Below are positions 5,827 to 59,946 of a DNA stretch of 64,000 nt, piece after piece. The notes under the pieces were generated by a model. It had not been told where the DNA came from and made no database searches. It saw only the letters and a program-made list of their open reading frames with translations. Numbering within the stretch: position 1 is the stretch's first letter; each line of letters starts with the position of its first letter. Source of the stretch: Cordia subcordata (lineage: Eukaryota > Streptophyta > Magnoliopsida > Boraginales > Cordiaceae); assembly GCA_028554755.1 (NCBI GenBank), contig JAPTOF010000010.1:5058001-5122000 (forward strand), read 5' to 3'. Both the position numbers and the translations under genes were made by a program.

Positions 5827-8800
5827 TCAACTGAAAATGATGGAAGGCACGTGACGGACTTTGTCGAAATCTTCTCCTGCTCGATTGTCCTCCTTAACTT
5901 GCAGCCTGCTGTTGAATTCTTCAGGCATAAAAGCAATTCTCAATTCTTTGAGGCTCCTCAGAAATCTCAACCCATCAGGAACCATCTTCAGTTCTCTACA
6001 GTTAAAATTTTCCAGATGAGAAAGATTCGGCATTGCTCCTTCTTCTATCCGGCAGTTCTTCAAGTTGCTCAAACCTTCAAGGCGAAAAAACTTGAGTTGA
6101 AGAAAACCATTAGCATGGCAAATCATGTCTTCCCCCTTGTAGGAGCCTCCCATTAGATGTAGACGTCTCAATTTGGGAAGCTTTTCTAGTGTCCTCATTG
6201 GGTCTCCCTCCATTTCAGAATACGCCAATTCTAATGAATGAAGATTTGGGGCTAAATAAAGTTCATACTCTGGTAATTTGCTTATGCGCCCAAAACTTAT
6301 GCTCAGATGAGTAAGAGGAGTGCAGGAAAACAACTTTTTAAGAACAGTTGATCCCTTCTCCAAACTAAAATCACAACATTTAATTTCAAGGAACAAGACT
6401 CTCAGGCGGATCAAGTTGTTTACTTGGTCGATGAATTCCTCCACGTCCTCTAGCTCGTCTGTGATCACCTTTAAAGATAGAAGATTTGTTAAAGTCGAAA
6501 TGACTTTAACATCAGTGTATTTATTATTCAAGTGTTCTAGTATCTCTAAACTCTGCAAGCCATCCAGTCGAAACTTAGAATACTTTCGAACGTATAGGTG
6601 TTTCAGTCGTTTCAGTTTCCTCACTGCATTTGGTATCCTTAATTTGTTGGTACAACGTAAATCAAGAGTTTGCAAGTGCTCGAGGTTGCTTATGGATGAC
6701 GGGATAATCAACAGTCGACTATCCCTGAAACTCAAGTATCTCAAGTGGATAAGTTTACCTATTGCTGAGGAAAGTCTGAGACGGTCAATTACAGCAAACT
6801 TTCCCTCTCCATAATTTAAAACAAGTCCTTCAATTGATAAAACTCTTAGCATCTTGAAATCATCCATTTGGGATTTCATTATCCTCGTTATTAGTCCCTT
6901 GTCCCATCCAGACCAGGAGAAAGTAAATGATCGAAGGTTTCCAGTCAATTCTTTTCTAGATAGAACATGCGTGTGATCCTCCTTTTGCAATGCTACTTTA
7001 ACTTCTCCAGATTTCTCCGGTCGTCCAACAGGACCAACACTGAGAACTTCTGCATGAGTTGCAGTCTTTCTCAATCGAACCACAACTTCTACAGGATCAA
7101 CATAACCGATAACTGTCATTATCCCCTTCTCTCCCTCAAGTGCTACAGAAAAAACACCTGCAAATTTAGAAGAAGAAGAATATAGTGATTGTTTAACCAT
7201 GACATCAAGTGATACCACATCAACAACTGTACATTTAGAAGAAGAATATCGTAATTGTTCAATTAACCATGATTTTGCTGTATGAAGAAACGTTCACATT
7301 TTCACTGTTAGCCTCTAAATAACAAAATTAGGCAACAAGAATAACAACTGGAAAATTTACCTGCAAGTCCGGCAACCAGCTGTATTGCCTTTCTCCTGCT
7401 CTTTTGGGTATGAGTACCAATCATGAGGAGCACTTTTTTGAGAGAGGATCCTGCAGACCCGTGTATGCTAGACAAAACATCAAAATCAATGATGGCAAGC
7501 CTAGGACTTCTAACAGTGGAGGAGAAGTCCACGAGCTCCTTGCCATTTCCGTGCCCATAATCCCTTAGCTGAAGGAACTTTTCCTCTTTTGCCTTGTGCA
7601 AGCATAGTTCTCTCATGATGCCATGAAGCCGACATGATTTAAACCTTCGAATTGAAGGCACATCTTCTTCAATTTCAACAAAAACCATGCACCTTTTTGC
7701 CAATTCTTCCAAATAGCATTGTGCAACATCCATCATCGATCCATTTCCACCCCAATGCTCCATGGATATCAGACCTTCAGCCATCCAAATCTGGTACAGT
7801 GACTGTTTCTATACAAGCATCTGCTACGTATTTGCTCAGGTAAAGAAAACAAGGTTTTAATTGGTACGGCAAGTCATCGTAACTCAACTCCAGTATATTT
7901 TGTAATCCTCTTTGATCCATTTCAATGTTGTTTCCCTTTCCTAGATATGATCTAATATTTTTATGCACATTTTGCCACTCCATCAAATTTTGTTTTGTCG
8001 AGAGAATCCCTCCTAGGACAAGTATACCCAATGGAAGACCTCCACAATGTTCAACCATTTGCTTTCCTAATTCCACCATTCTTTGGGTCTCGTCACAATC
8101 TACAATCAACAATTAAAGAAAACAAGATAAGGCCGTTGGAGAATAAAGATGATATCTCAAGCCAATTAATAAAGACGCACATGTCTTGCAGGAAAAAGAA
8201 CGAAAAAATATAGTAGCATTCGACAACATTCATCTTATCATTCTTTGACTTCCTTTGGTAAGCCTGCACATATCTTTCAAGTATTCAATATTAAAAATAT
8301 CTAAGAAACGAGCAGAGTATTAGCAAGTGCAACATTCTTCATTCATCACTTTTTTATAGGAGAAACTTCAGTTATATTGTTTCAAATAATAGACACGGTA
8401 TTCTTCAATAATTTGAGAATTAAAATTAATGGTATAACTAATTTAGAACAAAAAAAATTAAACAAAACAGCTCAAAGTACCTTGACAACATCTTTCGATT
8501 AGCGATTTCTTTTTAAGCAACTCCCAACTTTCATCATTGTTTAGTAATAGTGGTTGATAGAGGAAACCACTGGCATCTACACCCATAGCAATTCTTTCAT
8601 TGCGAGTCGTAACCAATACCTTGCTCCCTTTCTCTCTAATTGGGAAGGCAACTTTAATGGATTCCCAAGCTTCCAACGACCAAATGTCATCAAGTACTAC
8701 TAGGCATTTCTCGTTTTGTTGAAACTCAAAAAGTAGTCTGACTAGTTCCTCATCTCTCCGTTCTTTAATCGATTCCCTCTTCTCTGGCATAAATTTGGTA

Positions 8801-9501
8801 ATAATCTCTTGCAAAAGATCCCGCATTTGCCATTGTTGAGATACGCACACCCAGCAAAACACTTTAAAATTACGCCTTACTTCAAGATGGTGATACACTT
8901 GTTTGGCCAATGTGGTCTTGCCAAGACCTCCCATTCCCCATATAGAAACTACTCTATGGTTTTCACCAATAAGTTTTGTTGCCAGCATTTCAACTTGACT
9001 TGCCAGCCCAACAAGATCCTCTTCAACAATATGAGAATAAGAACGCCTCAACTGTTGTTGCCTAGAGCTTGAACCGCCTGGAGCGCTTCCATTCTCCATG
9101 ATTTCTCTTATGCCATAATCACGAAAACTTGTAGTAAGGCCAGATATTCTTTCCTTAAGGGATTTGTTATCTGACCCAACTCGATGACAAGTCAAGAGCT
9201 CGTCCAACAGATGAATACATCTCTTGATGATGCCCCTCCCCCTACGTGATTCCACCTTAAAAGCATAACGTTCAAGCAAATTTTCAGCTTCGTAGGCGAG
9301 ATCTCTAGTTTGTGAAACCCAATCACGAACCCTTTCCGCTTCACTTTGCCTTGCGTCAGCATCTTGTAGAAACCATCGCATTCGCTTCAGATCTTCATGA
9401 AGTTGGCGTGCTTGATCTTTTACACCATGCAAAAACCTCCCTTCTTCGATCAACAAATTTCCGAGCGTTTCTGCAACCGCGGAGATGGCAGCCTCTGCCA
9501 T
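5827..9501 (-). CDS. CC-NB-ARC-HMA-LRR disease resistance protein (RPP8/RPP13-like), one frame break
   Basis: An intracellular immune receptor of the coiled-coil NLR class. Predicted exons are 9501-8481, 8099-7361 and 7157-5827; both introns are GT-AG and phase 1. Residue numbers assume the frame break is closed (about 1030 aa). The CC domain is 1-150. NB-ARC has a P-loop GMGGLGKTT (189-197), kinase-2 LVVLDDIW (267-274), RNBS-B VLVTTR (295-300), GGLPL (360-364) and RNBS-D-like CFLYLSKY. The MHD motif reads LHG (499-501). An HMA domain follows at about 561-636, and LRRs run from about 650 to the end. The C-terminus, KVRHVPSIIF, is family-typical. Between YLSK... and QIWMAEG, near 7797, the frame shifts by two missing bases or one extra base. 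This is either a real lesion or a sequence error. The MAEAAIS start is normal for the family. The gene may be a pseudogene. Confidence 0.85.
7012..7442 (-). other. Integrated HMA (HIPP-like) domain inside the NLR
   Basis: The domain spans the second intron (7360-7158). The exon-2 part reads LKKVLLMIGTHTQKSRRKA...GLAG and the exon-3 part reads VFSVALEGEKGIMTVIG, then YVDPVEVVVRLRK, then AEVLSVGPVGRPEK. This is the beta-alpha-beta-beta-alpha-beta order of plant HIPP/HMA proteins, including the typical MTVIG-VDP-VV-LRK and LSVGP-PEK phrases. The splice joins the two halves in frame (GCA G|GT GTT). The metal-binding CxxC is absent; the loop reads GTHTQKS, so metal binding is unlikely. Known HMA integrations in rice NLRs also diverge from metal binding. 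It lies after ARC2 and before the first LRR. Confidence 0.85.
7794..7800 (-). other. Frame break in NLR exon 2
   Basis: Upstream codons (…DACIETVT) are in one frame, and the family-conserved downstream phrase (YQIWMAEGLIS) is in another. The upstream frame ends at a TGA within 10 codons. The family usually has T-L-Y-Q here, which fits loss of two bases. No convincing intron explains it, because the only GT...AG pair available is about 37 bp. Confidence 0.75.
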
Positions 9502-9997
9502 CTAGACTCAAGTTGAATGTAGAGTTACAAGTCCTACAAGCTCTTAATTGTTTGTTGATAGCTCAATGTGAAGAGTATGGGGCTCCCCTAGAGTAAGGCT
9601 ATGTTTGGCTAGATGATTTTAGCCATACACAAATCCAGAAATTATGCAATCTCTTTTCCCTTGCTGCTAAAATTTTGGCGAGTCCAAAATGCTTGGAAAA
9701 TTCAACTTCTCTCACTTTCATTTTTAGAGTACCGTGTCCTATCACTGTCATTCCAAGAAAATGCCAACTTGACTGGCCTACCAAACCGACAAAAACATTT
9801 CATTGGTACAACCTAACATTAATAACGACACGCTGCGAATATGGACAGCTTAATCTTCCTCGTTCTTGTTACTTGATGTTACTAAATCAAACAAATTAAT
9901 TTCGCTTTTTAAACTCAAAACACTTCAAATATTTAAATATGGAGCCAAGCAAAGCCTAGTATGACTATAAAATGCACCATGATTACATGTTTGTATT
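9502..9997. other. NLR upstream region
   Basis: This probably contains the NLR 5' UTR and promoter on the minus strand. A MITE-like phrase (GGCTATGTTTGGCTAGATGATTTTAGCC) begins near 9596, but its other end was not found. No gene is recognised. Confidence 0.4.
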
Positions 9998-10240
9998 AGA
10001 GATTTCCTTTGAAGCAGCTCCCAAGTCCCAACTTTAATTCATTCTTTTGCTCAAAAGTCGTGGTTAATGTAGGAAACCAATTGCCCGATTGCATCTATGT
10101 ATGTGTGCAACAACTTCTCTCTAAGTAATACTTTGTTACCTTCCTCCATAATCGGAAAGCATATTTTATGCATCTATTAAACATATCTCACTCGTCTCAT
10201 CATGTATTACTGCTACACATACATTTCTGGAGCTAATGAC
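9998..10240 (-). pseudogene. NB-ARC relic of a second NLR
   Basis: The minus strand reads, with stops, a piece equivalent to the functional copy's 8508-8700: FPIMEEGNKVLL..., then WELLQ. Shared DNA phrases include GCAGCTCCCAA versus GCAACTCCCAA and GTAGGAAACCA versus GAGGAAACCA. It lies in the same orientation, about 0.5 kb upstream of the NLR. This indicates a former tandem NLR array; the rest of the copy is lost. Confidence 0.7.
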
Positions 10241-10905: not shown

Positions 10906-12450
10906 GAATTTTTTTTTTTTTTTTTGTGAGGGAAGCTTAAGACCAATTACGTGGTAATTCTTCTGGGGATGGTGCTCTCTATTCTATCTTTCTCCAACAA
11001 GGAGACCAACTGCTGTGAGATCTCTGCAATTGATTCGAACCCAATAGGTCTACTAAGGCTGTAAGTAGCTAACCAATCTTTATAACTATTAGCTTCCTTA
11101 TACGCATGCCTGAAAAAGAAGCCTCTTCTCTGTCTAAGAACTTCTTTGCAATCCTCCACGATGGGTTTAAGTCGATTAGATCTTGGACGTGGACCATTCA
11201 TCAGCTGAAAGATAGCCAAGGAATCAATTCTGATGGTAACTTCATCTAGCTCCAAGGACTTAGCCATACGGAGACCCTCCCACAAGGCAAGTAACTCAAC
11301 TATACTATTAGTCAGTACACCAAGGTTTACAATGAATCCAACCATCCAATTAGCCTACTCATCTCTAAAAAGGCCACCCACTCTTGCCTTTGGCACAACC
11401 ATTCACATTTAGCTTCCACCTTTTAACTGATTTGGACCAACCAACTTCTAAAGTACTCCACGTTCGCAATCCTTTAGATTACTGCTGTAACCAAACCTCT
11501 GAGATCTCGTTTACCTGAGAGATAACATTACTAACTATCCCAATAGCTGTCAAAACTCTAGGCTCGCCATATATCTTCTTATTTCTCCATTTTCGTAGAT
11601 GTCATACCGTTACAACAAACACGATATTCCAAGGGACACCAAACTAAATCCTCAAAGACTTAATATTGCTTGTGATCTATTCCTCCCAAAGACCAAGGAA
11701 AAAACACCCTTTTTGATTTTGATGAAGAAGATTTTACCAAATACTCTTAACCTTAGGACAGAACCTAACAATATGCTCTTTATCTTTCTTAACGGCACCA
11801 CAAAAGCCATAAGAGAGATCATTGACAACATTCCTTGCCACTAATTGAACTTTAGAATCATCTTTTTTTATGAATTTCCTACCAAAGGAATGTTTTGATC
11901 CTCTGAGGACATTTGAGCTTCCAAATAGCCTCTCACAACAAATTAGTTTGCTGAAGGCCTACCTGCAATGCCTTAAAAGCTGATGCCATGGTGAAAACTC
12001 CCTCCTGGCCTAGGCTTCAGCTAATAAAATCATCTCACTCATCACTCTTCCAAACCTTACTATTAGCAACCCACAGTAAAACTAACGCTGGAAGTCTATC
12101 TTGGAAGGCTTCCCAATTTCACGAGCCATCATCCAACACATAATCCAAGACTAGTCATTCAATTTCCTCAGCCGAGACCTCTTTTATAACAATATCAATC
12201 AATGGGCATTCTCCAACCCACCAGTCCAACCAGAATCTAACCCTTTTACCATTACAAATAGCCTATTTAATGCCCTTATTTAACATCTCACATCCCTTCA
12301 AAATATTACGGCAGATGGTTGAATCAGTTGTCTTACTCGCATAGTTAATCATATCCTCACCAAAATATCTCTCCTTGAGAACTTTCTCCTATAGGAGATT
12401 AGGTTCATTGAAGATCTTCCACCCATATATGTCAAGAATAATTATAAAAC
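10906..12450 (-). mobile_element. LINE (L1-type), 5'-truncated, with poly(A) tail
   Basis: Minus-strand element whose 3' poly(A) is the T17 run at 10909-10925. Positions 10947-11345 encode most of an RNase H domain (NSIVELLALWEGLRMAKSLE, then IRIDSLAIF, then FFRHAYKEANSYKDWLA). The zf-RVT region follows to about 11860. The C-terminal part of the reverse transcriptase ORF (W-N-W-E, ERYFGEDM) reaches about 12430, with stops. The family is the same as the fragment at 222-1130. It abuts the next LINE at 12455. Confidence 0.85.
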
Positions 12451-31540: not shown

Positions 31541-31615
31541 TGAGGGTGTTCGTGGTGTCAGTGCAGACAGTGCAAAAGTTCATAGGATTCTCTAAACATT
31601 CTTTGTGGGAAAAAA

Positions 31616-32710
31616 ATGTTGCGTGGTGCAATGAGGTTTGGTTTGTTATCATTGCTTTGTTTGCATGTTCTTGTGGGCAGTGTGGTTTTTGCAAGAGATG
31701 TGAAAGATGATGAGGAGAAGAATTTGATTGTTGGTAAGGGAGGTGGGTTTGGTGGCGGAGCTGGGGGTGGTGGTGGTTTTGGTGGGGGTGTTGGGGGTGG
31801 TGGTGGTGCTGGCGGTGGTGGCGGTTTTGGCGGTGGTGGTGGAGTTGGTGGAGGCGGTGGTGTAGGAGGAGGTGGTGGATTTGGTGGTGGCATTGGAAAA
31901 GGTGGTGGTATTGGTGGGGGAATTGGTAAAGGAGGGGGAATTGGTGGTGGAATAGGTAAGGGTGGTGGTATTGGGGGAGGGATTGGAAAAGGTGGCGGAG
32001 TAGGTGGTGGTATTGGTAAGGGTGGAGGCATTGGCAAGGGTGGCGGCATTGGAGGCGGTATTGGCAAGGGAGGAGGTATTGGAGGTGGCATTGGCAAGGG
32101 TGGCGGCATTGGCGGTGGTATCGGAAAGGGTGGTGGCATTGGAGGTGGTATTGGAGGTGGTATCAGAAAGGGTGGCGGCATTGGAGGTGGCATAGGCAAG
32201 GGTGGCGGCATTGGAGGTGATATAGGCAAGGGTGGTGGAATTGGAAAAGGTGGTGGAATTGGCGGAGGATTTGGCAAGGGTGGTGGCATTGGAGGCGGCA
32301 TAGGCAAGGGTGGAGGCATTGGAGGCGGCATAGGCAAGGGTGGAGGCATTGGAGGCGGTATTGGCAAGGGAGGCGGCGTTGGTGGTGGAGCCGGTGGAGG
32401 ACTTGGTAAAGGTGGTGGAATTGGTGGAGGTTTTGGTAAGGGCGGTGGCATTGGAGGGGGCTTCGGGAAAGGTGGTGGTATCGGTGGGGGCTTCGGGAAA
32501 GGTGGTGGTATCGGTGGAGGATTCGGTAAGGGTGGTGGTATTGGAGGGGGATTCGGAAAAGGTGGTGGTATCGGTGGAGGATTCGGAAAAGGTGGCGGCA
32601 TTGGAGGTGGCATAGGAGGAGGTGCAGGAGGAGGGTTTGGTGGAGGAGCAGGTGGAGGTGGTGGCTTTGGAGGTGGAGGTGGGGGTGGTGGTGGAATTGG
32701 ACATCACTAA
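31616..32710 (+). CDS. Secreted glycine-rich (cell wall-type) protein
   Basis: A single-exon ORF of 364 residues. Residues 1-26 (MLRGAMRFGLLSLLCLHVLV...VVFA) form a clear signal peptide, followed by a short charged segment (RDVKDDEEKN). The rest is almost pure glycine-rich repeat. It begins with GGGFGGG/GGGVGGG and then has a long array of a 10-residue unit, GGIGGGIGKG, with Phe or Val substitutions. It ends GGGGGIGHH. This is the class of structural glycine-rich wall proteins, but regular Lys (GKGG) and no Tyr mark it as unusual for cross-linked wall GRPs. A second in-frame Met at residue 6 is possible. The 30-bp DNA repeat suggests copy number can vary. Confidence 0.88.
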   Translation: MLRGAMRFGLLSLLCLHVLVGSVVFARDVKDDEEKNLIVGKGGGFGGGAGGGGGFGGGVGGGGGAGGGGGFGGGGGVGGGGGVGGGGGFGGGIGKGGGIGGGIGKGGGIGGGIGKGGGIGGGIGKGGGVGGGIGKGGGIGKGGGIGGGIGKGGGIGGGIGKGGGIGGGIGKGGGIGGGIGGGIRKGGGIGGGIGKGGGIGGDIGKGGGIGKGGGIGGGFGKGGGIGGGIGKGGGIGGGIGKGGGIGGGIGKGGGVGGGAGGGLGKGGGIGGGFGKGGGIGGGFGKGGGIGGGFGKGGGIGGGFGKGGGIGGGFGKGGGIGGGFGKGGGIGGGIGGGAGGGFGGGAGGGGGFGGGGGGGGGIGHH

Positions 32711-34288: not shown

Positions 34289-34762
34289 TTACTGACATTT
34301 CTCTATAAAACACCAGTTATGATACTTCTTCACACCCTTCAAATCAAAGGGAGGGTTCAATATTTTGTTAGTCATAAAAAACCCATCTGCAGTTGCTACC
34401 CAAAAGCAGTATCCTCCAAAACTCCCACCACCTTTGACAAAACAATCATGCGATATATCGTTGTTGTAAACATCAAAATTTTGTTCATTCCCATTCCACC
34501 AGAAACGGCAATAGAATCTTGTCGTGAGGAGAATATTTGGTCGGAACGTAAAACGGAAATACTCGTTGACATGAAGGGTGTGGTTTCCGAAATCGTCGTC
34601 TGCGGATTGACAATGGGCAGTCATCGGTAACGAATCTGCAGGGAGACCGTTTACTATCCGGACATCATATCGCTTTGTCAGGTGAATCGCGCACTCTAAC
34701 GTTTGAATAATAACAAAAAAGCGCAGCAGCGCTAACAACAATAAGTATCTAGTCCTCCACAT
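34289..34762 (-). CDS. Plant self-incompatibility S1-like (S-protein homologue) secreted protein
   Basis: An intronless ORF of 157 residues, the usual length for the family. Residues 1-24 (MWRTRYLLLLALLRFFVIIQ...) are a signal peptide. The mature part has the family's landmarks: VRIVNGLPADSLPMTAHCQS near the start, DDFGNHTLHVNEYFRFTFRP in the centre, TRFYCRFWWNG, then a C-terminal YCFWVATADGFFM. Cysteines are in family-like places, with extra ones in WCFIEKC at the end. The S1 family was defined by the poppy stigma S determinant. Most homologues in other plants have unknown roles as secreted signalling-like proteins. No break is seen. Confidence 0.88.
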   Translation of the reverse strand: MWRTRYLLLLALLRFFVIIQTLECAIHLTKRYDVRIVNGLPADSLPMTAHCQSADDDFGNHTLHVNEYFRFTFRPNILLTTRFYCRFWWNGNEQNFDVYNNDISHDCFVKGGGSFGGYCFWVATADGFFMTNKILNPPFDLKGVKKYHNWCFIEKCQ

Positions 34763-36423
34763 GTGACAACGTACTAGCTTGATTTATGTTTTGAGGAATG
34801 AAATATGATAACAACTAGTATTACACGCATGTTTTATAAAGAAGTTGTGTGACACTCATGTTATTATGAGAATTTAAAGATGATTAACTCTACCGAATTA
34901 TGATAATTAAAATCTGATTAGATAACATATTGTTGTAATGCTAATAAGTAAATATCATGATTATCATACTATACGTTTGACCGGAAAGTGGTCCATTCAA
35001 AAGCCAAGATGAAGCTTAAGATGGTAAGTAGCATTATTAAAAGATTAATTTCTATATATATATATAAGCAAAATAAATGAGTTGAAATATATGTTTTATC
35101 TATTATGTCGCGTTCAAACTTAATCACGTGACATGTTGTTTGCCTAAAATGCTCAATTCTTCAAGCACACCAGGTGCAGAACCATCAATTATATATCACT
35201 GTTCGGAGCCACTAAAATTATTATTGGACAATCCAAAAGACATAACATTTAATCTTTTTTCGTAGACTTTCAAATCTAATAGAAACATCTAACTATATAA
35301 TATAGTAGAAACGAATTTACCATATTTGTTCACTTAAAAATTTATTAATCCTGTAATGCTACCACACGTCATTTGTACATTAAACAAGAAAAGACTGTTA
35401 TTTGACACTTACAACTTATTTGACAGTATCTTATAACAACTTGGATTAGAATCAATCAATCTAAATCTGTACAAGGCAATGCCAAGCAAGAGTTGGAGTA
35501 GAAAAAAAAATGTCGAGTAAGATCTAAAAAGAAAAAGAAAACTCGTGTTTTTGTCTAATAATGAAGTTTATAAATACATCTAAGCGTATGAATCACTGGC
35601 ACGGAAGGCTATGATCTATTTTTTTCCTTTGTGGCGGCGGGGACAGAAATTAATAGTGGATCATTCTGGCTAATGAGCCTCCAGGTATCATTATCAAAAG
35701 CCTTCTCAACTCATATGAAGGTTCTTCGAGAATGTTAAGCCCCTAATGGATGCATCAACCAAAACTAACCAACTAATCTACGCATTTGTTGACCTTCTCT
35801 ATACACATGGGAATGCGAAGTCCTGACCGTCTCAACATTTGCCTACATCTTGAAAAAGTGCCACATCCGGTCCCGTGTTATTATTATCTCACCTGATGAG
35901 TTTGTGTTGAAGGGGAAGCATATTTCTTGAATGTGCCTTTGACTTGAACTTCAGCTTGTGAGTTATGACTCTGCTTCTAACAGATGTGTTCAGTTGTTCT
36001 CGATTTGCTCATGCAGTTGGTTGAGAGTTACCTTACTATTGAAACAAGTACATGAACTTTTATGTCTGATTGCAAAATTACACAGGAAATTATATGTAAT
36101 ACCTTTCTCGCTAAGCTACTTGAGGCAATATATGGGCTGGGCCAATCAAATATATCTATAAACATCACATGTATAGTGAAAAATGAGTTCATCCATTTTC
36201 CTTGTAATGTCTGGCATCAGACTGCATACTTCAACCTCAAAGAATTAACTCAACTTCATTCATGTGGAAGGAAAAATAGTTATGAAAATGTTAGACCGAA
36301 ATCGAAGCATATATCATTTGGAACAGAAGATAAAAGCTGCACAGCTTTGAGAAAATAATACAGCAAAATCATAACTTCAACTGTTTTCTAGTTAGACTCG
36401 GCAAAAGCATGATGCTGACAGAA
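34763..36423. other. Intergenic; possible LINE RNase H remnant at 35690-35870
   Basis: The stretch around 35760-35870 (minus) resembles the LINE RNase H tail at 300-420 (ACCAACTAATCTACGCATTTGTTGACCTTCTCTATACACATG). No complete domain can be read. The rest is AT-rich and without features. The bases next to 36423 are the bL28 3' UTR. Confidence 0.35.
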
Positions 36424-54383: not shown

Positions 54384-54715
54384 TGTTGAATGTGGCTCGT
54401 ATTCTTGGGCAACAAGAATAGCAAATTTTCTTATTAGCATATTACCTTATTCGCTTGTTACTTTTTGTAGCACATAATTAATTAGTTGCTTTTTCTGCTT
54501 AATAGGTTTAGGAAACCTTTGCACTATAAATATGTGGCAATACTCATTATGTTATGTGTGAGAGAGAAACCAAAGTGAGAGCCTTGTAGCATTCGTGATC
54601 AATAGTAGAATTATTCTCTGCTGCCCGTGGACGTAGGCTTTAAAGCTGAACCACGTAATTCTTGTGTCCTTTATTTCTTCTCATATTCTTTGTGTTTGCA
54701 TGTTTTTCCCCAACA
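54384..54715 (+). repeat. 5' LTR of the younger copia
   Basis: 332 bp, TGTTGAATG...CCCCAACA, with a TATA-like CTATAAATATG in the middle. By eye it differs from the 3' LTR by about 13 substitutions and one 1-bp indel (about 4%). Confidence 0.95.
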
Positions 54716-54718
54716 AAC

Positions 54719-54730
54719 TGGTATCAGAGC
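54719..54730 (+). other. Primer binding site (initiator Met-tRNA)
   Basis: TGGTATCAGAGC lies three bases after the 5' LTR and is the standard copia PBS complementary to initiator tRNA-Met. Confidence 0.93.
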
Positions 54731-57700
54731 TTAGGTATTAATCCGCTGCTTGAGGGAAAAAGGAAAAATCAAAACTCACTGTAAAACCAAAATTTCTCAA
54801 ACCAAACGGTGCCTAACCAAACAAAGGTCTTTGTTCGACGAGGAGTGCTCCGGTGCTGTTTACGTTGAGCGTTAGTGGCTGAAGTGGAAGCTTGTGTCGG
54901 CGGGTCGTGGTTCGTGTTTGGGTTTGAAGAACAAGCGAAGAAGATAGAGTTCGCGTGCTCTTGAGGTTGGTTTTGGGTATTCAGGTTTTTTTTTTTTTTT
55001 GGGGAATTGGTTCAAGTTTGTAAAGCAAGTTTAGAGTTAGTAGGGTTTGGGTCTTTGGGTTTATTTGGATCGGGCCTGGGTACTGGCCTTGTCCAATTTT
55101 AGCTAGGTCTTGGGTCTTGGGTTAATTAATTTTTTGTTGAGCTTGGGTTCTAGGCCAGAAAAATAATAAATTTCTTTTTTTTTGGGTTTGGGCTTAGTTT
55201 AGGCCAAAAGAACCAAAAAAAAAATTTATTTGGGTTTAGATTTAGTCCTAAAAAAAATATCTGACTAGTTGACCTGTTTGACCGCGTTGACCGGGGTTGA
55301 CCGAGGTTTAACTTTGATGTTGACCATTGACCAAGGGTTGACCGAGTTTGACCAAAGCCTTACCCCACGTTTTTCGACGTGCTGAGTCCGTTTTTGGGCT
55401 CTGTTTTCTAGATTCAGCTCCGAAGTACGAGTTTAGGGACAGTGTTGACTTTGACAAATAGGTTTGACTTTGACTAGTGTTGACCAGGGGTGTTCCTAAG
55501 GTTTCTCGACGTGCTGAATCTGTTTTTGCGGTCCATTGAGCCAAATTCCATCCCGAAGTGTGAGTTTTGTGCAAACAAATATGTCTTCCACAGGTGAAAA
55601 GTTTGAAATCGAGAAGTTTGATAGAAGAATGAGTTTCAGTCTTTGGAGGATCAGATTCAAGGCATTTATGACAATGCAAGGATTTTGGAAAGTCATTAAA
55701 GAAGTGATCCCGATAAAGATGGAACCAGCAGTAAGAGAAGAACTCGAAGCGAAAGCCTTGAGTGCAATACATATGTCCGTGACAAATGAAGTATTGCTGG
55801 AGATTGCTGAGAAGACGACAGCAGTTAAGGCTTGGAATACTTTGGTGGAATTGTATGCATCTAAATCTCTCACCAATCGCCTCTACTTGAAGAAGCGATT
55901 GTATCATCTTAGAATGAAAGAAGGTACGTCACTAAAGCAATACCTTGATGAGTTTACCTCTTGTTTTATTGCTTTGAAGGATGTGGGTGTTAAAATTGAT
56001 GACGAAGACTAAGCTATGATCGTATTATGCTCTTTACCGCCTTTATATATGAACTTTGTAGACACTATGTTGTACGAGAGGGATAAAATTACGTTTGAAG
56101 ATGTGATTGCTTCATTAAAATAGAAGGATCTTCAAACACATATTCCGGGACATAGGGAAGAAGTTCATGGGGAAGGTTTAGTGAGTAGAGGGTGATCAGA
56201 GAATAGAGGGGGATCTTCGAGTAGAAAGAAAAGCAAGTCAAGGTCAAAATCAAGAGCAAGGAAGCTACGTTGTTTCGAGTGTGGTGAAAAGGGTCACATT
56301 AAGAAAGAATGTCCAAAACTGAAAAAGGGAAAGAAAAAGGTGGAAAATTCAGCTAATGTAGTAGAGAGTGCTGACAGTGATGGGGAGAACTCGAGTAGTA
56401 CTGGGGAAGTTTTGACTGTTAGTGCATCACAATGGCATAATCAATGGATTCTTGATAGTGGTGCAACGTTCCATATGTGTCCTAGACGTCACTAATTCTC
56501 TTCTTATTCCAAAAGAGAAGGGAAAGTCTTTCTAGGCAATGATCTTTCGTTGAAGGTGGAGGAAATGGGCATCGTAAATATCAAGATATTTGATGGTATT
56601 ACAAGATCTCTCGAGTGTTGGCATGTATCGGAGCTAAAGAAAAACTTGATTTCTCTTGGACGTTTGGATTCTCATGGATACAAATTTCGAAGTGAGAATG
56701 GTGTCTTAAAGATGACCAAAGGAGCAATTGTGCTCTTGAAAGAGAACTTGACTGGCGGCCTATATGTCCTTCAAGGTAATACAGTTACAGGTGTTGCAGC
56801 TATTACATTCGAGAAGAGTGATAATGACACTACGCAGTAGTGGCACAAAAGGTTGGGCCATATGAGCGAGAGGGGACTGACTGAGATGAGTAAGAGGGAT
56901 TTGCTTTGTGAACAAAGAACTGGAAAGCTTGAATTCTGCAAGCATTTTTTGGAAAGCAAACTAGGGTGAAGTTCAGCAAGGGGCAGGAGAACACCAAAGG
57001 TACATTTGATTATATTCATTTTGATCTTTGGGGTCCTAATAAAGTTCCTTCCAAGAAAAGTGCCAGGTATTACATCACTTTCATAGATGCATACTCTCGG
57101 ATGGTGTGGGTATACTTCTTGAAAACTAAAGATGAGGCGTTTCCAACATTTGTCGAGTGGAAGACGTTGATTGAGAAGCAGACTGGTAAACAAATTAAGC
57201 GTCTTAGGACTGACAATGGGTTGGAATATTGCAATAAAGAGTTTGATGAGTTCTGCAGGAAACATGGCATTGTGAGACACCGCACATGTGTAAGGACACC
57301 ACAACAGAATGGAGTTGCAGAACACATGAATAGAACTCTGGTGGAGAGAACTCGTTGTATGCTCTCCCAATCTGGTTTGAGTCAAGACTTTTGGGCTGAA
57401 GCCGTCAATACGGCATGCTACTTGGTGAATAGGTCTCCATCCAAAGCTATTGAATTGAACACTCCTTTTGAGTTATAGTCTGGTAAGCCTGCTGACTACT
57501 CTCAATTGAGGGTGTTCGGTTGCCCTGCATACGCTCACGTGAAGGATGGCAAGTTGGAGCCGAGGGCAAAGAAATGCATATTTCTAGGCTATGCTTCCGA
57601 GAGGAAAGGTTATAGGTTGTAGTGCACAGATCCAAAGTCTTCAGGTTTCCTCATCAGCAAGGATGTCATATTCAATGAGTCTGCTTTATTAGACCAAGAA

Positions 57701-59615
57701 AAGGAGAAAGCAGTAGTTGGTTTAGACCACGGTGTCAAAGAGCAGTGGAGGTATTTGCTGATGCTCCAAATGTTCCATCTAGCAATAGTAGCAGCCAAAT
57801 TCAGTCGACTCAACCAACTGAGGCGCATGATCAAAATGTGCCTGAACAACAGAAGTACAGCATTGCCACTAGGCGAGTAAGGAGACAGATTAGAGAGCCT
57901 CAAAGGTACGGATATGCTGATCTTGTTGCTTATGCTTTGACTGTTGCTGAAACAATTGAAGGACATGAGCCGAATTCATACAAAGAGGCCATATCTGGGA
58001 AAGATTCTGCTCAGTGGGTGGGTGTCATGAGTGAAGAGATTGAGTCTCTTTATAAGAATCAAACATGGGAGCTTGTTGAATTGCCTAAGGGACAGCGAGT
58101 TGTCGGTTGCAAATGGGTTTACAAGAAAAAGGAAGGTACTCTAGGGGTTGAAGGTCTTCGATACAAGGCACGGTTGGTGGCAAAAGGCTATACACAAAGG
58201 GAGGGTGTTGACTTCAACGAAGTGTTCTCTCCGGTTGTGAAGCATAGTTCCATCAGGGTTTCACTTGCCTTAGTTGCTCTTCATGACTTAGAGCTTGAGT
58301 AGCTAGATGTGAAAACGGCATTTTTGTATGGTGATCTTGAAGAGCAAATTTACACGAGTCAACCGGAGGGGTATGTAGTTTCTAGTAAGGAGAACCATAT
58401 TTACAAACTGAAGAAGTCCTTGTATGGGTAAAAGCAGTCACCTCGGCAATGATATAAGAGATTTGACACATTCATGGTAGGTGCTAGATACACAAGGAGT
58501 GCCTATGACAGTTGTGTGTATCTCAAAAGGCTTCCAAATGGGTCGCTTGTGTACTTGCTGTTGTATGTCGATGGCATGTTTATTGCTGCTAAAAGCATGT
58601 CTGCAATCGATGAATTAAAGAAGCAGCTAGGTGATGAGTTTGAGATGAAGGATCTTGGAGCAGCGAAGAAGATTCTTGGCATGGAGATTCACAGATATAG
58701 AAACGCTGGGAAACTGTTATTATCTCAACAGAGTTATATGGAGAAAGTGCTAGAGCGTTTCGGAATGCTGAAAGCAAAGCCTGTGAGTGTGCCGCTTGTT
58801 GCTCATTTCAAGTTGTCTACAGATTTATCACCTAAAACTGAGGAGGAGGTGGAGCATATGTCTCATGTTTCATACTCGAGTGCTGTTGGTAGCTTGATGT
58901 ATGCTATGGTGTGCACTCGTCCTGATATTTCACATGCAGTTAGTGTTGTGAGCAGGTATATGGCATCACCTGGGAAAGCACGCTGGGAAGCGGTGAAATG
59001 GATAATGAGATATTTGCATGGCACTATGAATGTAGGATTACTATTTAGCATGATGACTAGAGATTGCGCGAGGTTGGTGGGTTATTGTGATGCAGACTTT
59101 GTGGGTGACCTTGATAAGAGAAGATCTCTGACGGGTTACGTGTTTACTCTCTCTGGATGTGCTATCAGTTGGAAAGTGGCATTACAGTCTACTGTGGTAT
59201 TGTTGACTACTGAAGCAGAGTACAAGGCAATTGCAGAAGCTGTGAAGGAGACTATGTGGTTACAAGGCTTGGTTCGTGATTTTGGACTGCAGCAGGATAC
59301 AAGTACAGTCTTTTGTGATAGCCAGAGTGCAATCCATCTGACGAAGAATCAGATGTATCATGAGAGGACTAAACACATTGATATCATATATCATTTTATC
59401 AGAGATGTTGTATCACAAGGAATCATATCGGTGCAGAAGATATCTACCCATGAGAATCCAGCAGATATGATGACTAAGGCGGTTCCAGTCAGCAAGTTTA
59501 AGCATTGCTTGGACTTGATTACTATTTGCGATGCGGAGCATTGAGCTCTTAGAGGTAGTTGGCTACAGGGATAATGGTGTATTGATTGGAGCGAAGACGT
59601 GCTAAGGTGGAGATT

Positions 59616-59946
59616 TGTTGAATGTGGCTCGTATTCTTGGGCAATAAGAATAGCAAATTTCCTTATTAGCATATTATCTTATTCGCTTGTTACCTTTTGT
59701 AGCACATAATTAATTAGTTGTCTTTTCTGCTTAATAGGTTTAGGAAACCTTTGCACTATAAATATGTGGCAATACTCATTATGTTATGTGTGAGAGAGAA
59801 CCAAAGTGAGAGCCTTGTAGCATTCGTGATCAATAGTGGAATTATTCTCTGCAGCCCGTGGACGTAGGCTTTAAAGCTGAATCACCTAATTCTTGTGTCC
59901 GTTATTTCTTCTCGTATTCTTCGTGTTTGCATGTTTTTCCCCAACA
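59616..59946 (+). repeat. 3' LTR of the younger copia
   Basis: 331 bp, matching the 5' LTR. A purine-rich tract (AAGGTGGAGA) precedes it, as a polypurine tract would. Confidence 0.95.

Follow-up and report, generated by a model that had tools for sequence, protein, structure and literature searches.

A CNL gene with a copper-chaperone-like HMA domain integrated in frame was found in the window, the 64,000-nucleotide stretch of Cordia subcordata DNA analysed here (positions 5,058,001 to 5,122,000 of contig JAPTOF010000010.1, denoted C2; the assembly comprises 472 Mb in 62 contigs, and its gene content is plant-like). The integration is real, while the splicing that joins the domain is predicted from the sequence. 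The reading preferred here, to which a probability of roughly 0.6 is assigned, is that a stretch of a HIPP gene was captured at the DNA level by a CNL and entered the loop that follows the first LRR strand, that the HMA most likely served as an effector bait, that the fusion is represented at three loci, and that the copy in the window is probably a relic.

The single CNL gene lies on the minus strand between 9501 and 5827, limits read from the sequence, and is composed of three exons. Exon 1 (8481-9501) encodes the CC domain (Rx_N) and the first part of the NB-ARC domain, including motifs which we take to be the P-loop (8937-8911), kinase 2 (8706-8680) and RNBS-B (8622-8596). Intron 1 (8100-8480) has GT/AG ends, and its position is supported by 8 of the 11 other CNL loci in this genome, where the second match segment begins at residue 341 (L015, L017-L021, L023 and L030, but not L014, L016 and L026). 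Exon 2 (7361-8099) encodes the ARC region, the winged helix (WH_DRP), the MHD position, the first LRR strand RLAI (7502-7491) and the first half of the HMA (7361-7442), in which strand 1, a Cys-free loop and helix 1 were assigned by alignment to solved HMAs. Intron 2 (7158-7360, GT/AG) is located within the HMA, at phase 1 in a Gly codon. Exon 3 (5827-7157) contains the second half of the HMA (7012-7157), ending in VLSVGPVGRPEK, followed by a linker, the LRR domain and the stop codon. All of these features are on the minus strand. Coordinates, strand, intron 2 and domain order agree with an earlier sequence-only reading. Pfam recovered the domains of a CNL in order, namely Rx_N (PF18052, E 2.3e-22), NB-ARC (PF00931, 1.8e-43), winged helix (PF23559, 4e-9) and LRR (LRR_14, PF23598, 7.2e-43). 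The C-terminal isoprenylation motif of a HIPP is absent, as the LRR domain follows the HMA and the protein ends in SIIFS. Among the 120 protein matches listed of 2580 hits, the best score belongs to a Prunus dulcis protein of double length (43%); the next named matches are mostly from Cinchona, Coffea, Lonicera and Nyssa. Intron 2 also contains a partial internal repeat (7158-7293) with a second candidate acceptor; since the frame upstream of the acceptor used here is open, the second acceptor would insert an in-frame stretch before the second half of the HMA.

The identity of the domain was analyzed with profiles and solved structures. The search with PF00403 proposed in the sequence-only reading gave E = 0.0027 for the joined HMA segment, although its 18.5 bits fall below the curated cut-off of 24.8; within the longer protein the score was 14.7 bits (E 0.042). 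The closest solved sequence in a phmmer search of the PDB is the integrated HMA of Rmo2 (PDB 9tfo, 2.1e-10, 44 bits), followed by rice Os03g0111400 (8.1e-9), Pikp-1 (4.1e-7) and RGA5 (1.9e-5). A considerably clearer picture was obtained with a HIPP profile built from the HMAs of eight HIPPs of the same genome. The joined HMA reached 81.2 bits, whereas the two halves gave 6.7 and 63.8 bits separately, so that joining them gains about 10 bits over their sum. The maximum among 2000 shuffles of the joined HMA was 9.5 bits, by which a chance match is ruled out. The read-through protein scored 75 bits with the same profile, in comparison with a top score of 6.4 bits for the NLR relatives among the 120 listed of 2580 hits. 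The proposal of a HIPP-like HMA assembled from two in-frame exon halves has thus been confirmed, with the splice predicted. The absence of CxxC, previously regarded as a sign of a decoy, carries no such meaning, since five of the nine HIPPs examined in the genome likewise lack it.

Analysis of intron 2 points to HIPP DNA, rather than mRNA, as the captured material. Six of the nine HIPPs examined (L022, L024, L025, L027, L029 and L031) possess an intron at this Gly codon, likewise in phase 1, whereas the other three (L003, L006 and L007) have none there; further HMA loci (L001, L002, L004, L005 and L008-L011) are outside this count. Furthermore, HIPP L025 and the HMA of the window share 73.8% DNA identity over 145 bp, including 17 bases of the intron. 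The shared intron position and phase, together with an identity that extends into the intron, suggest capture at the DNA level. No placement of the donor HIPP was supported in the HMA tree. Among HMA-free CNLs, a single frame runs across the insertion site in 9 of 10 loci (L014-L019, L021, L023 and L026), and L020 displays a frame change just upstream of it.

The insertion site could be delimited by alignment with seven HMA-free paralogues (L014-L019 and L021) and six outside relatives, L020, L023, L026 and L030 being left out. The window gene and L013, a second locus described below, carry, between RLAI and ED..LRSFTF, a clean insertion of about 100 residues, which is present in none of the 13 HMA-free relatives aligned; no HMA was seen on inspection of loci L020, L023 and L026. 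In the window, the whole inserted stretch including the intron spans 6982-7490 on the minus strand, bounded by RLAI on one side and EDHTHVL on the other. The HMA-free relative P0002 was modelled with a mean pLDDT of 80. The model, whose fold is similar to CNLs such as NRC2 and ZAR1 in a fold search, places RLAVHL (543-548) within a strand at 543-549, and LRSLSF (567-572) continues into the following strand at 569-575. Because RLAVHL is a strand in this model, the insertion in the window is placed after the first LRR strand. On this predicted structure, the HMA is located inside the first LRR unit, in the loop after its first strand, and not at the strict NB-ARC/LRR boundary. The earlier placement between ARC2/MHD and the first LRR is corrected accordingly, the site being one strand further on. 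The alignment and the P0002 model agree well with the earlier statement that the site differs from those of Pik-1 and RGA5: the HMA is neither between CC and NB-ARC, as in the Pik-1 lineage, nor after the LRR, as in the RGA5 lineage.

By match range and inspection, at least three loci, all on one contig, carry an HMA together with an LRR: the window gene, L013 (C2:4554915) and L030 (C2:5051791). Searching the genome with the start of exon 3 produced 50 matches, 30 of which were opened as loci. With exon 2 as query, ten matches were obtained; eight of them stop at query residues 43-49, close to RLAI (41-44), and only the window gene and L013 continue into the HMA; L030, whose first HMA half has diverged, is among the eight. 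With the HIPP profile, the segments of L013 and L030 scored 51.0 and 30.7 bits, respectively. In Pfam, the joined HMA of L013 had no match at E <= 1 and the second half in L030 reached 16.1 bits. Since all three copies are under the Pfam cut-off or unmatched, the number of such fusions may be underestimated in domain surveys. In a tree built on the winged-helix part, the three loci come together with weak support (75/32; 74% of bootstrap trees), and their grouping in the HMA tree, at 28%, is unsupported. The common site and similar intron sequence nevertheless favour a single capture event for the three copies. Three PF00403 hits considered as HMA-NLRs (C2:2440091, 1455990 and 1523034) were rejected, as the 9.9 kb around them gave no match to any other part of this CNL. 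Annotated NLR-sized proteins with the window HMA were absent from the 192 matches at E <= 0.01 and from the 244 at E <= 10; this search is weak, since a match has to share words of 5 residues with the query and to score high among 5.8 billion sequences.

The condition of the three copies is critical for what can be concluded on function. In the window, exon 2 loses its frame near 7806, ahead of the winged helix, a feature absent from the sequence-only reading. Within the region 7777-7815 on the minus strand, one frame hits a stop at 7779-7777 and the other resumes from 7805, and the spliced gene is accordingly not one open reading frame. It is the one disruption of this copy: P-loop, kinase 2, splice sites and LRR are open, as is the frame through the HMA. 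Both relatives are more decayed. Exon 1 of L013 changes frame twice and contains two internal stops, the stretch of residues 341-430 is missing, the HMA donor is displaced and a further frame change occurs near the end. In L030, exon 1 is absent from the stretch that was read, stops are present, and the match finishes at residue 710 of 1030. In addition, the MHD position reads LHG in the window gene (7631-7605, minus strand) and in L013, where L014, L015, L018, L021 and L030 have LHD; HG occurs in none of the 97 MHD-like motifs found among the 120 listed relatives (of 2580 hits). Loss of the MHD aspartate is linked to altered switch control in other NLRs. Given the frameshift and the damage found in both relatives, the window gene as assembled is probably a relic, and the sequence does not bear out the earlier picture of a working decoy. 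The frameshift could be a sequence error of one assembly. With damage in all three copies, the finding in this genome is limited to a fossil for as long as no intact allele has been seen.

Changes in substitution rate along the gene were compared between the window copy and L013. The ratio dN/dS is 0.28 in the CC part (residues 25-190) and 0.27 in the NB part (193-340), rising to 0.67 in the winged helix, 2.91 in the 21 codons ahead of the HMA (8 to 1 changes) and 1.79 in the HMA (30.8 nonsynonymous and 6.2 synonymous changes). It then falls to 0.54 in the linker and 0.96 in the LRR, where 60-codon windows range from 0.29 to 1.54 and the late ones reach 1.2-1.5. The HMA differs in rate from the CC-NB part (Fisher p 0.0016) but not significantly from the winged helix (p 0.33) or the LRR (p 0.50). 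Against L030, the second half of the HMA gives 1.14, the ARC 0.32 and the winged helix 0.38 (p 0.079). Because L013 and L030 are pseudogenes, these ratios represent past selection mixed with decay. The rate pattern of the HMA fits a bait and is no proof of one. Between the window copy and L042/L013, exon 1 has a dS of about 0.33, against 0.11-0.14 across most of exons 2-3, a gap which suggests recombination or gene conversion.

From these observations the following course of events is proposed. An At1g50180/RPP8-like CNL would have taken up DNA of a HIPP gene, namely a piece comprising the HMA domain with its own intron, and this piece would have entered the loop behind the first LRR strand. 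Such a landing would place the HMA at the hinge that links the NB-ARC/winged helix to the LRR solenoid. The domain would most likely have served as an effector bait, and binding of an effector could disturb the contact between winged helix and LRR, so that the switch is released. The HMA would have diversified among the three loci of the contig; with its frameshift, and with two relatives that are more decayed, the window copy is probably a relic. The single capture, the hinge mechanism and the loss of function are inferred, and kinship and rates make it reasonable to infer a bait role as well. The earlier suggestion of a likely decoy is consequently retained in part: a HIPP-type HMA with bait-compatible rates in a CNL speaks for it, and the frame damage at all three loci against it.

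Three other explanations have to be weighed. The fusion may be real and the HMA may never have been a bait, a neutral insertion having loosened or broken the receptor, with the lineage decaying since. The damage to all three HMA copies would be expected, LHG stands in the window gene and L013 where relatives have LHD, and relaxed constraint could explain a fast HMA that is not significantly faster than the LRR. However, the CC-NB part remained constrained between the window copy and L013, the HMA ratio is nominally above 1 and its frame is open in the window, so that this course of events is considered unlikely, while being the most serious competitor. The gene might instead be intact in the plant, the frameshift being an assembly error or confined to one allele, with a working HMA-CNL today. 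The otherwise open window copy is consistent with this, but L013 and L030, with the same layout, are clearly damaged, and we regard it as improbable.

That a HIPP fragment lies in the NLR by chance and is not spliced in is far less probable still. The splice is a prediction, which leaves some room for such a fragment, but the NLR frame is continuous on both sides of the HMA, the intron has canonical ends at the HIPP site, joining the halves improves the score and the layout recurs at two further loci; an unspliced fragment was accordingly rejected on the frame and intron evidence. Capture of HIPP DNA, with a likely bait role and a probable loss of function, remains the preferred reading. If it is true, HMA baits have been captured at structurally different places in CNLs, a bait is possible at the hinge beside the switch, and the intron shared with HIPPs is evidence of capture at the DNA level. 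A bolder generalization is offered only tentatively and is somewhat doubtful: in an asterid CNL lineage, the interior of the first LRR unit, at the hinge between NB-ARC and LRR, may be a third site of HMA integration in NLRs, with a geometry unlike that of Pik-1 and RGA5 and with the possibility that a bound effector acts on the switch directly; intact alleles would be expected in relatives, and surveys at the Pfam cut-off would have missed them.

The surroundings of the gene were also surveyed. A tblastn search of the window with this CNL as query, whose sensitivity is limited to similar NLRs, found, where a head-to-head partner NLR was looked for, only a small NLR-like fragment upstream (9985-10167, minus strand; 38% over 65 columns, E 5e-5). 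The NLR gene is flanked by a retroelement-like direct repeat of 921 bases (218-1127 and 10957-11860, 84% alike), in which Pfam detects RVT_3 (2.3e-14 at 10947-11354) and a weak zf-RVT (746-1111). Elsewhere, the window contains a Copia-type element (54384-59805) that contains RVT_2 and whose terminal repeats are 96% alike over 190 bases, a plant self-incompatibility S1 family gene or fragment (34289-34783; PF05938, 1.5e-24), and an open frame of 374 aa with glycine-rich repeats (31586-32710) that has no Pfam match and whose DNA repeats mostly in alternating steps of 12 and 18 bases.

Comparison with known systems is based on the available parts of the cited papers. Among the matches listed in the open-licence literature, these parts contain no clear case in which the HMA sits between NB-ARC and LRR or at another new site. 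PIK5-NP is said to carry its HMA between NB-ARC and LRR, yet it is labelled CONL (PMC12409091); this label fits the Pik-1 site, so the wording is probably a slip and was rejected as a precedent. A 2025 review describes the forms CC-HMA-NB-LRR, CC-NB-LRR-HMA and HMA-kinase, besides MLA3 without a full HMA (PMC12835825). HMA-NLRs were listed by Sarris et al. for Brassica napus, Capsella rubella, Malus domestica, Medicago truncatula and Triticum urartu (PMC4759884), and for 305 angiosperms a total of 1226 integrated domains has been reported, in 9651 genes (PMC12787737). In apple (Malus), an RPW8-RPW8-SBP-NBS-HMA architecture, represented by a single gene in M. baccata and another in M. domestica, likewise places an HMA in a eudicot NLR, but it is RPW8-type and the HMA is listed last (PMC6643876). 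Rmo2 resembles the window gene in its integrated HMA and was compared on that domain alone.

Rice Pik-1 resembles the window gene more closely, being a CNL with a HIPP-type HMA that lacks CxxC (PMC12835825), which in the Pik-1 integration clade also holds an intron (PMC8294853), in line with the Pikp-1 match in the PDB. It differs in that its HMA lies between CC and NB-ARC and in its mostly head-to-head partner Pik-2 (PMC8294853), where the tblastn search of the window with this CNL showed only an NLR fragment besides the gene itself. Rice RGA5, also matched in the PDB, shares an HMA integrated in a CNL, but the domain is C-terminal and RGA4 acts as helper (PMC12835825). As stated by Maqbool et al., one domain may enter at different places (PMC4547098, PMC5067614), and an HMA site in between is therefore not new in principle. 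HMA baits in eudicot NLRs have already been reported: Rpi-brk1 of the potato relative Solanum burkartii, a working receptor and like the window gene a eudicot NLR with an HMA, binds its effector directly through that domain, differs in belonging to an R1-like clade, and its HMA has been placed by engineering at the C-terminus of R1; in potato NLRs the HMA is the commonest non-canonical domain, present in 119 NLRs from 46 accessions (PMC13141979, PMC13322757).
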